Both the position numbers and the translations under genes were made by a program. From contig CABIZF010000001.1 of the NCBI GenBank assembly GCA_902363135.1, positions 248,001 through 312,000 of the forward strand: a DNA stretch of 64,000 bases, in the 5' to 3' direction. Origin of the DNA: Lachnospiraceae bacterium (lineage in GTDB: Bacteria > Bacillota > Clostridia > Lachnospirales > Lachnospiraceae). Numbering within the stretch: the first letter of the stretch is position 1; every line of letters starts with the position of its first letter. Shown here in pieces: positions 28,704 through 32,712 of this stretch. The notes under the pieces were generated by a model that ran no database searches, was not told the DNA's origin, and saw only the letters and a list, made by a program, of their open reading frames with translations.

Positions 28704-30230
28704 ATGGAAGATTTCAATATTCAGCTGCCATGGCCTGGATGGCGGGCAGTAAAGTATCTTGGAAGCGGTCAGTTCGGGAGTGTCTATGAGGTCGAGCGCG
28801 CGCAGCTTGGCATCACGGAGCGGGCTGCGGTGAAGGTGATTGCGCGGCCGAAGGATGAAGATGAGGTGGAGCAGCTGTATGAGAGCGGCTTTGATAAAGA
28901 AAGCGTTTCAGCGTATTATGAAGAGAGTCTGAATCGCTATATTCGTGAATACCGTATGATGATGGAGCTGAAAGGCCAGTCCAACATCGTCAGCTGTGAT
29001 GATTTTGCACTGATTCCGAATCCGGATGGACTAGGCTGGAAAATTTATATCCGGATGGAGCTTCTGACTTCCTTAAAAAAGGTACCGAAGGAGATGCTGG
29101 AAAAGGATTCCGGCGTCATTCGGCTGGGCATGGATATTTGCAGAGCCCTGATGCTGTGCGAGCAGAAGCATATCATCCACCGGGATATCAAGCCGGAAAA
29201 TGTGATGGTATCTTCTTTTGGAAATTTCAAGCTGTGTGATTTCGGGATTTCCAGAGTGCTGGACCATACGACCAATGCGACGAAGGCGGGGACTCCGCTC
29301 TACTGGGCACCGGAAGTGGTACGCATGGAAAAGTACGGACAGACGGTTGATATTTATTCGCTTGGAATTATGATGTATGAGATGCTGAACAACCGCAGAG
29401 TGCCATTTATCCGCGCGGATGAACCGATTACAGCGAAGAAAATCGATGAGGCAATGGACCGCAGACAAAGAGGAGAGCAGGTGCCGCCGCCGGCAAACGG
29501 TCACCCGGAGCTGAAACGGATCGTATTGAAGGCGTGTGCATACCGTCCGCAGGATCGATATGCCTCTGCAGAAGAGATGTATGCGGATCTGGAGACACTG
29601 GCAAATGGCGGGGAGAATATCAGCTCGCAGACCTTTCGCTCGCAGTGTGGAATGGCAGAAAGAAATCAGACGGAAGTTCAGAATGCCTGGAAGACGATGG
29701 GAAGCCAGGGCAGTTCGTATGACCGGGGCTGGAAGACGCAGGGCAGTCTGGATGACCGGGCAGGCTGGGGAAGCCAGACTAGCGGTGGTCGGAATGAAAC
29801 GCAGGATCGCCTTATCTTCGATGGCGGGTATCTCTCAGAGGATATGATCACAGAGCCTGACACGCAGGAAGCCGTGCTGGAGGATGTCTATGTCCTGCTT
29901 GTGGGTCGGAAGATCAACAATATAGAGGAGCTGCGGTATAAATTTTTCGGACAGATCATACCAGACAACCGGAAGCTGCTGCTCGTTGCGAAAGATTACA
30001 GCAGGGATGCATACGAGCAGCTTGGCAGATTCGTGCGTCAGGGTTTTGTACATATGGTGGCGGTATGGGCGCCGGAAGAAAAAGGAACCTTAGAGGAGAT
30101 AGCGTCCCTGACCGGTACCAGAATCATCGGTGCGGAGCCGATCAGCTATGTGACACTTGATGAGCTGGGACATGCGGAGCGTGTCCGTGTATGGGAAGAT
30201 GGGATGGAGCTTACTATAGCAATTTCATAA
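28704..30230 (+). CDS. serine/threonine protein kinase fused to a GroEL-apical-like domain
   Basis: A 508-residue soluble protein. Residues 1-300 are a Hanks kinase very close to the upstream one, identical over NIQLPWPGWRAVKYLGSGQF. It has Lys44, HRD 159-161, DFG 179-181 and APE 202-204. A polar linker (about 301-365) leads to residues 367-508, which align without large gaps with the apical domain of the GroEL encoded at 31087. Matches are FDGGYLSEDM / FDRGYISAYM, NRKLLLVAKD / GRKLLIIAED, EEIASLTGTRII / RDIAILTGGQVI and LDELGHAERVRV / MDMLGHAKSVKV. There is no equatorial ATPase domain. A role in folding, client sensing or chaperonin regulation is inference. The last codons (LTIAIS) overlap a 160-bp element. 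groES follows 433 bases later. Confidence 0.9.
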   Translation: MEDFNIQLPWPGWRAVKYLGSGQFGSVYEVERAQLGITERAAVKVIARPKDEDEVEQLYESGFDKESVSAYYEESLNRYIREYRMMMELKGQSNIVSCDDFALIPNPDGLGWKIYIRMELLTSLKKVPKEMLEKDSGVIRLGMDICRALMLCEQKHIIHRDIKPENVMVSSFGNFKLCDFGISRVLDHTTNATKAGTPLYWAPEVVRMEKYGQTVDIYSLGIMMYEMLNNRRVPFIRADEPITAKKIDEAMDRRQRGEQVPPPANGHPELKRIVLKACAYRPQDRYASAEEMYADLETLANGGENISSQTFRSQCGMAERNQTEVQNAWKTMGSQGSSYDRGWKTQGSLDDRAGWGSQTSGGRNETQDRLIFDGGYLSEDMITEPDTQEAVLEDVYVLLVGRKINNIEELRYKFFGQIIPDNRKLLLVAKDYSRDAYEQLGRFVRQGFVHMVAVWAPEEKGTLEEIASLTGTRIIGAEPISYVTLDELGHAERVRVWEDGMELTIAIS

Positions 30231-30374
30231 ATTACTGCAAACAATCCAGTCCATCATAGCGTGAAGCCCTGCGTCAGATATCTTTGCCGTGCGTCAGCAC
30301 GCCTGCAGGTATCTTCCTTGTCCTTCGCGCTCTGCTGAACGGTCTTGATTGTATTATTTTATGGAATTGCTATA
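30215..30374. mobile_element. 160-bp MITE-like element with terminal inverted repeats
   Basis: The left end TATAGCAATTTCATAA and the right end TTATGGAATTGCTATA are inverted copies with one mismatch, and ACAATC/GATTGT pair further in. TA at both outer ends would fit insertion at a TA dinucleotide. The element carries the final codons and stop of the kinase-apical gene. No open frame inside. The remaining bases to the groES promoter (30375-30470) are A-rich with no clear feature. Confidence 0.6.
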
Positions 30375-30473
30375 AAAAATCTTCAAAAAAACGATAAATG
30401 AGTAAAACGGAGAAAAACGGAGAAAATCAGAGAATATCAAAAGAATACATATAAAAACAGGAAACTGATGAAT

Positions 30474-30502
30474 TTGCATTATTCCGGTAATTTCATTAAT
30501 AT
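30474..30502 (+). promoter_or_regulatory. groESL promoter
   Basis: TTGCAT and TAATAT with a 17-base spacer, immediately upstream of the CIRCE operator. Confidence 0.75.
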
Positions 30503-30513
30503 AGCATTGTTGA

Positions 30514-30540: not shown

Positions 30541-30663
30541 CAAATAAAAGCGAATTTAGCCGAATCACCGCAATGGCCGTTCGGTTATAAGCGGGCAGTA
30601 TGTGGACGACAGGTTCACCTGCCACAATGGATCTGGATGAAACCATCTAAGGAGGAATTAAAT

Positions 30664-30948
30664 ATGAAGTTAGTACCGTTAGGCGACAGAGTTGTATTAA
30701 AGCAGTTTGAAGCAGAAGAGACGACCAAATCCGGTATCATTCTTACAAGTAAGACACAGGAGAAGCCGCAGGAGGCTGAGGTTATCGCGGTAGGACCGGG
30801 CGGACTGGTAGACGGCAAAGAAGTGACCATGCAGGTAAAGGTCGGCGATAAGGTAATCTACTCCAAGTATTCAGGAAACGAAGTAAAGCTTGGCGAGGAA
30901 GAGTACATCATCGTAAAGCAGAGTGATATTCTCGCAGTAGTAGAGTAA
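30664..30948 (+). CDS. groES: co-chaperonin GroES
   Basis: The 94-residue heptameric lid of the GroEL chamber. It starts MKLVPLGDRVVLKQFEAEE, contains the mobile loop region TTKSGIILTSKTQEKPQ and ends KQSDILAVVE. Ribosome binding site AAGGAGG is 9 bases upstream of 30664, which rules out the upstream ATG. It lies 138 bases before groEL in the same CIRCE-controlled unit. Confidence 0.97.
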   Translation: MKLVPLGDRVVLKQFEAEETTKSGIILTSKTQEKPQEAEVIAVGPGGLVDGKEVTMQVKVGDKVIYSKYSGNEVKLGEEEYIIVKQSDILAVVE

Positions 30949-31086
30949 AACAAATTGCACAGGCATCAGAGCAAGAATATCGGATGCCGGGCAGACAAAG
31001 AAGCAGATCCGAACGATCTGGCTTTGGACGGATAGAGAGGCGGAAGAGGAATTCCGCCGGATAAAAAGAAAAGGAGATCGATGATC

Positions 31087-32712
31087 ATGGCAAAGGAAAT
31101 TAAATTTGGTGCAGAAGCCAGAAAATCTCTGGAGACTGGCGTAAATAAACTGGCTGATACCGTTCGTGTGACACTTGGACCGAAAGGAAGAAACGTAGTA
31201 CTTGATAAGCAGTACGGCGCTCCGCTGATCACAAACGACGGTGTAACGATTGCAAAAGAGATCGAGCTTGGCGATGCATTTGAAAACATGGGTGCTCAGC
31301 TGATCAAGGAAGTTGCTTCTAAGACCAATGATGTCGCTGGTGACGGTACTACGACTGCTACCGTACTGGCACAGGCAATGGTAAATGAAGGAATGAAGAA
31401 CCTGGCAGCAGGTGCGAACCCGATCGTTCTGAGAAAGGGTATGAGAAAGGCTACGGATACTGCGGTAGAAGCAATCCGTGCGATGAGCCAGAAGGTAAGC
31501 GGCAAGGAGCAGATCGCAAGAGTAGCGACTGTTTCATCCGGAGATGAGACCGTAGGACAGCTCGTTGCAGATGCAATGGAGAAGGTAACCGGCGACGGCG
31601 TTATCACCATCGAGGAGTCCAAGACCATGCAGACCGAGCTGGATCTGGTAGAAGGTATGCAGTTCGACAGAGGATACATTTCCGCATATATGGCAACAGA
31701 TACTGAGAAGATGGAAGCAGTTCTGGATGATCCGTGCATCCTGATCACAGATAAGAAGATCAGCAATATTCAGGAGATCCTTCCGTTGCTTGAGCAGATC
31801 GTACAGGCAGGCAGAAAGCTTCTCATCATCGCTGAGGACATCGAGGGCGAGGCACTGACCACCCTGATCGTCAACAAGCTGCGCGGAACCTTCTCTGTAG
31901 TAGGTGTAAAGGCTCCGGGCTATGGTGACAGAAGAAAAGAGATGCTCAGAGATATCGCGATTCTGACCGGTGGACAGGTTATTTCCGAGGAGGTCGGCAT
32001 CGAGCTGAAGGATGCGACCATGGATATGCTTGGTCATGCAAAATCCGTGAAGGTTCAGAAGGAGAGCACCGTTATCGTTGACGGTATGGGCGATAAGAAA
32101 GCAATCGCAGACCGCGTTGCTCAGATCAAGGCTCAGATCGAGGAGACAAAGTCCGAGTTTGATAAAGAGAAGCTGCAGGAGCGTCTTGCAAAGCTCGCAG
32201 GCGGTGTGGCAGTGATCCGTGTCGGCGCTGCAACCGAGACTGAGATGAAGGAAGCAAAGCTTCGTATGGAAGATGCTCTGAATGCAACAAGAGCAGCAGT
32301 AGAAGAGGGTATCATCGCAGGCGGCGGATCTGCATACATCCACGCTTCCAAGAAGGTAGCAGAGCTTGCTGCAAACCTTGAGGGTGACGAGAAGACCGGT
32401 GCAAAGATTATCCTGAAGGCACTGGAAGCTCCGCTGTTCCACATCGCTGCAAACGCAGGTCTGGAAGGCGCAGTGATCGTAAATAAAGTACGTGAGTCTG
32501 AGGTAGGCACAGGCTTCGACGCTTACAACGAAGAGTACGTAGATATGGTAAAAGCAGGCATCCTGGATCCGGCAAAGGTAACCAGAAGCGCACTGCAGAA
32601 CGCAACGAGCGTAGCATCTACCCTGCTGACCACCGAGTCCGTAGTAGGCAACATCAAAGAAGAAACCCCGGCAATGCCGGCAGCACCGCAGGGCGGCATG
32701 GGAATGATGTGA
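31087..32712 (+). CDS. groEL: chaperonin GroEL
   Basis: The 541-residue chaperonin subunit has equatorial ATPase motifs (TLGPKGRNVV; NDVAGDGTTTATVLAQAM), the apical domain (about 186-370, with FDRGYIS at 193) and the usual Gly-Gly-Met C-terminal tail. The start MAKEIKFG at 31087 is preferred over 31081 because AAGGAG lies 11 bases upstream. Its apical domain is the closest visible relative of the C-terminal domain of the upstream kinase. Confidence 0.98.
   Translation: MAKEIKFGAEARKSLETGVNKLADTVRVTLGPKGRNVVLDKQYGAPLITNDGVTIAKEIELGDAFENMGAQLIKEVASKTNDVAGDGTTTATVLAQAMVNEGMKNLAAGANPIVLRKGMRKATDTAVEAIRAMSQKVSGKEQIARVATVSSGDETVGQLVADAMEKVTGDGVITIEESKTMQTELDLVEGMQFDRGYISAYMATDTEKMEAVLDDPCILITDKKISNIQEILPLLEQIVQAGRKLLIIAEDIEGEALTTLIVNKLRGTFSVVGVKAPGYGDRRKEMLRDIAILTGGQVISEEVGIELKDATMDMLGHAKSVKVQKESTVIVDGMGDKKAIADRVAQIKAQIEETKSEFDKEKLQERLAKLAGGVAVIRVGAATETEMKEAKLRMEDALNATRAAVEEGIIAGGGSAYIHASKKVAELAANLEGDEKTGAKIILKALEAPLFHIAANAGLEGAVIVNKVRESEVGTGFDAYNEEYVDMVKAGILDPAKVTRSALQNATSVASTLLTTESVVGNIKEETPAMPAAPQGGMGMM

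Follow-up and report, generated by a model that had tools for sequence, protein, structure and literature searches.

The window analyzed here is a stretch of 64,000 nucleotides from the genome of a Lachnospiraceae bacterium (contig CABIZF010000001.1), in which an initial annotation had noticed a Ser/Thr kinase gene with a GroEL apical domain directly upstream of groESL. This gene is an open reading frame of 508 amino acids on the + strand (28704..30230) and can be divided into three portions, all on that strand: a Hanks-type Ser/Thr kinase domain (28746..29573; residues 15-290; Pfam Pkinase PF00069, 3.9e-41), a low-complexity Gly/Ser/Gln/Thr linker (29604..29801; residues 301-366) and a GroEL-type apical domain (29805..30203; about residues 368-500). 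The next genes downstream, also on the + strand, are groES (30664..30948; Cpn10, 1.6e-33; start codon picked by eye) and groEL (31087..32712; Pfam Cpn60_TCP1, 2.9e-82). The same fusion in the same gene order was found in an independent assembly, the Lachnospiraceae metagenome-assembled genome SUG1168 (locus L001), and both the domain architecture and the position directly before groESL were confirmed. An assembly chimera was ruled out by this assembly together with the P0001 cluster of 249 members.

By its domain match and motifs, the protein is a Hanks-type Ser/Thr kinase with predicted catalytic activity: what we take to be the catalytic Lys (K44) and the HRD (159-161), DFG (179-181) and APE (202-204) motifs are all present, and the corresponding columns are invariant or nearly so in the kinase alignment of the family. 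The best NCBIfam model over the kinase part was PknB_PASTA_kin, with a score of 146 against a cut-off of 450, and no PASTA repeat was matched in the 508-residue protein at E<=10 in Pfam. The linker is the least conserved portion of the fusion, with a predicted local distance difference test (pLDDT) value of about 20.

Sequence comparisons identify the tail as a homologue of the GroEL apical domain. Residues 372-499 align to residues 193-326 of the GroEL encoded in the window (9e-21), with 50 of 135 positions identical (37%), 76 of 135 positive and 8 gap columns; the indels fall at three places (one residue gained in helix H, four lost in the GFGDRR/GYGDRR loop and three lost before 'PISYVTLDELG'), and the earlier description of this alignment as almost gap-free was slightly generous. 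The isolated tail matched NCBIfam GroEL models (best three, 1e-21 to 3.6e-18), far under their full-length cut-offs and at profile positions ~183-328 alone, and neither the equatorial nor the intermediate chaperonin domain, with its ATPase, was matched. A search of chaperonin profiles, which the initial annotation had proposed as a check, was thus positive with NCBIfam and negative with Pfam, in which PF00118 gave no match to the fusion protein at E<=10; PF00118 appears to be blind to this tail, in keeping with the precomputed Pfam annotation of relatives, in which no apical domain appears. Among sequences of solved structures, 66 matches were obtained at E<=10, the best 60 of which were all chaperonins or apical domains, and the top match was the T. 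thermophilus apical fragment 192-336 (1srv, 5.8e-18). Chance alignment is ruled out by the E values for the window GroEL and 1srv. The predicted apical model also superposed on known apical domains, with its residues 6-144 on 192-336 of 1srv and its residues 5-144 on 191-336 of 1dk7, and in this model the tail has the apical fold that had been expected of it. With regard to its origin, a recent copy of the adjoining groEL is unsupported, the DNA likeness at E below 0.01 being one 89-nt stretch (67%), and donor tracing by a tree failed, with ~10 changes per site on the fused branch and a skewed letter make-up.

Analysis of the client-binding groove revealed a different picture from that of the fold. 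Recognition positions were taken from a table extracted from PMC8774168 (numbering one higher) and from a list in PMC7289027. As given in the extract of PMC7289027, the hydrophobic groove positions are Y199, Y203, F204, L234, L237, L259, V263 and V264, and L234, L237 and N265 contact GroES; an extract of PMC10723157 places Y203, V264 and R268 among the contacts to a non-native Rubisco substrate. At the eight core positions the fusion reads Y-D-M-Y-F-Y-G-R, versus Y-Y-M-L-L-L-I-V in the window GroEL, so that two of the eight are identical and five are still hydrophobic, three of them having changed from Leu to an aromatic residue. The non-conservative changes are Y203->D (D380), V263->G and V264->R (R442); in addition, R268 is replaced by Q (Q446), and the equivalents of L234, L237 and N265 are Y, F and F, with the first two equivalences less sure than the others because of the one-residue insertion in helix H. 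By this residue comparison, the fused domain lacks the groove of a functional minichaperone. Compared with 64 GroELs, it showed 18.5% identity at 16 recognition positions and 40% elsewhere, whereas GroEL-GroEL pairs were more alike in the groove (86%) than in the rest (69%), with 42 of 1457 pairs reversed, the pairs being those less than 80% identical outside the groove. For this test and the tree, 84 candidate GroELs and that of the window gave the 64 GroELs, plus three fused rows (L001 and P0001 not among them); identical or short (<126 amino acids) apical rows were left out of both. The remodelled groove is shared by two fused relatives described below, P0003 (16 of 16 positions identical; 92% over the domain) and P0002 (15 of 16; 88%). 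Taken together, these residues argue for a domain in which the fold is kept and the ancestral binding surface is rebuilt, several of the new residues being aromatic. Such a domain may still bind proteins, but probably not in the GroEL manner.

The initial annotation had suggested that the domain might act as a canonical minichaperone sensor, in which capture of unfolded polypeptide, of the GroES mobile loop or of both would switch on the kinase or set it in competition with GroEL. True apical homology, minichaperone-like boundaries, the adjoining groESL genes and the five hydrophobic groove positions, three of them now aromatic, are consistent with such a sensor, but Y203, V264 and R268, which the PMC10723157 extract gives as substrate contacts, are all altered, V263 has become G, and the three GroES contacts of the PMC7289027 extract have been replaced. 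Binding like that of a minichaperone is therefore not supported by the residues, and we consider this explanation unlikely.

The neighbourhood of the gene provides further information. Upstream, the window contains topA on the + strand, then codY (25162..25977, +), the usual gene upstream of groES in the genus, and a paralogous kinase gene, kin2 (26601..28670, +), which encodes a kinase domain (Pfam Pkinase, residues 40-314 of the GTG-started frame, 1e-40) and a tail, hydrophobic by eye, that is presumably membrane-spanning. Only 33 bp separate the end of kin2 from the fusion gene, and the two kinase parts are 71% identical in G001, the genome of L001 on which the genome-level searches were based. 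Both kinase genes fill the codY-groES gap in the window and in L001; as these two belong to one species, or very nearly so, the adjacency to groESL comes from one species. In 18 of 20 genus relatives (selected from the other 46 genomes of the genus because their contigs extend far enough upstream of groES), codY was the nearest searched gene before groES on the same strand, which was not the case in the other two, and none of the 20 had a kinase or free apical match at 1e-8 upstream of groES in the fetched stretch. The kinase pair beside groESL is a lineage-specific insertion. P0002 and a kin2-like protein, P0042, are both encoded on contigs of 4783 bases, which hints that a second lineage may also have the kinase pair. 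For P0002 and P0003, which are protein entries, no groESL context was seen.

Between the kinase gene and groES lies a putative HrcA-binding operator of the CIRCE (controlling inverted repeat of chaperone expression) type (30514..30540, +), with one mismatch to the consensus and no match in 100 shuffles. This site makes it probable that groESL has a heat-shock promoter of its own and that the two kinase genes, with their short intergenic distance, form a separate transcription unit; a promoter-like sequence at 26365-26393 was found by consensus match alone. On the other hand, the site scan listed no terminator-like site on the + strand in the interval from the fusion gene to groES, and read-through is thus possible. 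At its 3' end, the fusion gene carries an insertion resembling a miniature inverted-repeat transposable element (30215..30374, no strand assigned; ~158 bp), whose terminal inverted repeats are 52 nt long and 77% complementary and whose borders are TA. L001 has the empty site, and the insertion replaces the last seven residues, KKSSKKR in L001, with IAIS in the window; fusion residues ~501-508 lie outside the apical homology.

This arrangement bears on the possibility that the apical copy brings the kinase to the GroEL ring or its vicinity, with GroEL or GroES as its substrate. Apart from the gene lying immediately upstream of groESL in the window and in L001 (one species or nearly so), a kinase acting on GroEL has precedents, since B. 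anthracis PrkC phosphorylates GroEL according to an extract of PMC5460178 and several M. tuberculosis Pkn kinases phosphorylate GroEL1 according to one of PMC6213207. However, the GFGDRR-type loop is gone, the CIRCE-type site splits the kinase gene from a groESL operon that probably has its own control, P0002 and P0003 come without a visible groESL context, and the adjacency may merely mark the landing place of the kinase pair. We regard such docking on GroEL as rather improbable.

To describe the distribution of the fusion, about 5.8 billion clustered proteins were searched by shared 5-residue words. Among the best 120 of 5629 matches to the full-length query, 10 (P0001-P0010) bear the apical tail, and a query with the tail only retrieved 21 proteins, namely these 10 fusions or fragments of them and 11 GroELs. 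P0011-P0041, which outscored closer kinases in the full-length search, were rejected as further fusions, as P0001-P0010 were the only ones of the 120 listed proteins that the apical searches matched. Five of them (P0011, P0012, P0016, P0024 and P0026) appeared by eye to contain two kinase domains, the second being diverged, with SHCGIRPEN or a similar sequence in the place of HRD, and perhaps a pseudokinase. When two peptide patterns were used as a net over 84,980 species genomes, one locus, L001, was recovered. Within its genus, the fusion occurred in one of 47 genomes; 45 of the 47 gave matches, those other than the fusion lying in frames of 532-571 amino acids, except one of 395 at a contig start. 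No further fusion was found in 397 family genomes at 1e-100 or in 392 order genomes at 1e-21, cut-offs that catch close relatives and that a very divergent fusion could escape; in the family genomes, at most three candidates per genome were scored for the fusion, five for the kinase and three for Hsp70-GrpE. Among the matches listed for 199 phylum genomes, there were no other non-GroEL apical proteins, and all frames were of 537-593 amino acids except the fusion (520) and one of 383. The survey of relatives recovered the fusion in L001, and as far as these searches reach, the kinase-apical architecture is confined to one narrow Lachnospiraceae lineage rather than being a general trait of the family.

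Within this lineage the three portions evolve differently. The kinases of the window and L001 differ at 5 of the first 503 residues, and the synonymous/nonsynonymous changes, which are few events, are 2/0 in the kinase domain, 2/4 in the linker and 4/2 in the apical domain, the last giving a ratio of nonsynonymous to synonymous changes per site (pN/pS) of about 0.15 from 6 changes. Identities to P0002 and P0003 are 96% and 95% in the kinase domain, 79% (8 indel positions) and 71% (17 indel positions) in the linker, and 88% and 92% in the apical domain; the latter is free of indels and thus better preserved than the linker. An incidental capture, in which a kinase gene already inserted upstream of groES picked up a groEL fragment that is now a mere tail, dimerisation or stability element with no chaperone role, would agree with the single narrow lineage, the saturated branch of about 10 changes per site to the GroELs and the natural deletion variant P0004, but it seems quite improbable given this better preservation, the low pN/pS (albeit on 6 changes) and a groEL DNA likeness already down to 89 nt at 67%, which speaks against a fresh junk fusion.

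We also surveyed same-family kinases in the genus and family genomes, finding 46 frames, of which 42 were scanned and four short pieces left out; tails may be missed in 11 of the 42, in which the locus edge truncates the 3' end. At E<=0.01 the tails included PASTA (4), LRR_8 leucine-rich repeats (4), Big_2 (4), DUF6273 (2), SH3_3 (2), NPCBM (1) and DUF805 (1). Chaperone parts were present in three of the 42: L107, which is the fusion itself and the only one with an apical tail (by an apical search, since Pfam misses the domain), L131 and L115. A DnaJ/Hsp70 motif regular expression had found nothing and a looser one had flagged L131; Pfam settled both chaperone cases. L131, whose kinase part is 44% identical to that of the fusion, has two DnaJ_C stretches after the kinase (78 bits; cut-off 26.6). 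Its frame (L131:1492-3477, +; L152:3075-5063) ends in a hydrophobic tail and lies immediately 3' of a PP2C gene. In the protein search, P0100 (60% identity over 61% of the query) carries a DnaJ C-terminal domain, and when its DnaJ part was used as the query, 14 proteins were retrieved, 13 with a kinase domain and all identical in that stretch; the 13 entries (P0100 and P0133-P0144) thus represent one event, separate from L131. P0073 had a DnaJ_C match of 18 bits, under the cut-off. L115 is part of a 952-residue frame in G033, a genome of the L001 genus (L151:3178-6036, -), in which a kinase (46% identical to the fusion kinase) is followed by an Hsp70 segment (27.7 bits; cut-off 20.6) and a terminal GrpE (56.5 bits; cut-off 25.8), with PDB matches to DnaK (1.5e-8) and GrpE (8.3e-6); the remainder of the Hsp70 part is degenerate by eye. 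Its neighbours include a PP2C gene and one whose product weakly resembles WXG100 proteins (17 bits; cut-off 27.3). A separate Hsp70-GrpE gene in G001 (L154:6407-8365, -; 653 amino acids), the only relative found in the 397 family genomes at 1e-15, clusters with genes for a PP2C phosphatase, a WXG100 protein, an FHA-FtsK/SpoIIIE ATPase and kinases, in a layout that we take to resemble a type VII secretion locus. Parts that are fused in G033 and separate but clustered in G001 support a working link between the kinases and chaperone-like proteins.

On the basis of these results, we favor, with moderate confidence, a soluble Hanks-type kinase whose remodelled apical head docks or senses a partner and couples phosphorylation to proteostasis. 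The apical domain would be a C-terminal accessory domain, tethered by the flexible linker, that steers the kinase or controls its activity through binding of a partner or substrate. As aromatic and charged residues (Y376, D380, Y412, F415, Y437, R442 and F443) have taken over the aliphatic groove, client binding in the GroEL style is probably lost, and the rebuilt groove would recognise a narrower set of partners. The general role in coupling phosphorylation to proteostasis is proposed because the kinase family elsewhere bears DnaJ C-terminal and Hsp70-GrpE modules; ligand binding, control of the kinase and a tie to folding stress are what we infer. Best supported is a kinase with a chaperone-derived head for docking or sensing, within a family that has recruited such protein-binding modules more than once. 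More tentatively, one family of Lachnospiraceae Hanks-type kinases might have repeatedly taken client-binding parts of the major chaperones (GroEL apical domain, DnaJ C-terminal domain, Hsp70 with GrpE) as sensory or docking heads in a cytoplasmic, phosphorylation-based folding-surveillance pathway, in which the GroEL-type version would have a new specific ligand.

Several observations weigh against the idea of a remodelled sensing head. The apical model was built from an alignment including GroELs, so that its fold is partly imposed, and a full-length model without GroELs gave 10-residue pLDDT means of 23-54 over residues 371-508. Taken by itself, the window pair showed no significant groove difference (3 of 16 versus 47 of 117; Fisher p 0.11), the larger contrast rests on GroEL pairs that are mutually non-independent, and a groove common to fused relatives that are 88-92% alike is weak evidence. 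In P0004, roughly half of the linker is missing together with the first ~20 apical residues, a deletion that takes out groove positions 199-204. Finally, chaperone modules are a minority (3 of 42 kinases, with 11 of the 42 having cut tails).

The component parts are of known kinds and their combination is new; of the open-licence PubMed Central papers that our searches listed, none has a title or abstract opening that describes a kinase fused to a chaperonin apical domain. Should the three kinds of tail (apical, DnaJ and Hsp70-GrpE) indeed be working sensors, they would constitute a bacterial kinase pathway that reads protein folding and that could be approached with small soluble domains. The eukaryotic PERK and IRE1 are thought to read protein folding directly, and we know of no bacterial kinase that does so. 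Even otherwise, the fusion is a natural test of an apical domain freed from the ring, in which the fold core is retained while the surface that is extra-conserved among GroELs changes.

Compared with the PrkC, PknB and Stk1 kinases, the fusion has the same Pkinase domain with catalytic motifs, whereas it has no PASTA match and its accessory domain is that of a chaperonin. Its apical portion is cut at about the same places as the minichaperone fragments (PDB 1srv, 1dk7, 1jon and 1kid); unlike them, it is naturally fused to a kinase, has lost the GFGDRR-type loop and has a remodelled client groove, and its branch is far longer than those of the sampled GroELs. P0100, P0133-P0144 and L131 belong to the same kinase family and likewise place a chaperone client-binding module after the kinase, but theirs is the DnaJ C-terminal domain in one or two copies, followed by segments that are hydrophobic by eye. 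The G033 protein shares the genus, the kinase family and the presence of chaperone parts in the tail, and differs in bearing an Hsp70 segment and GrpE and in its PP2C and weakly WXG100-like neighbours.

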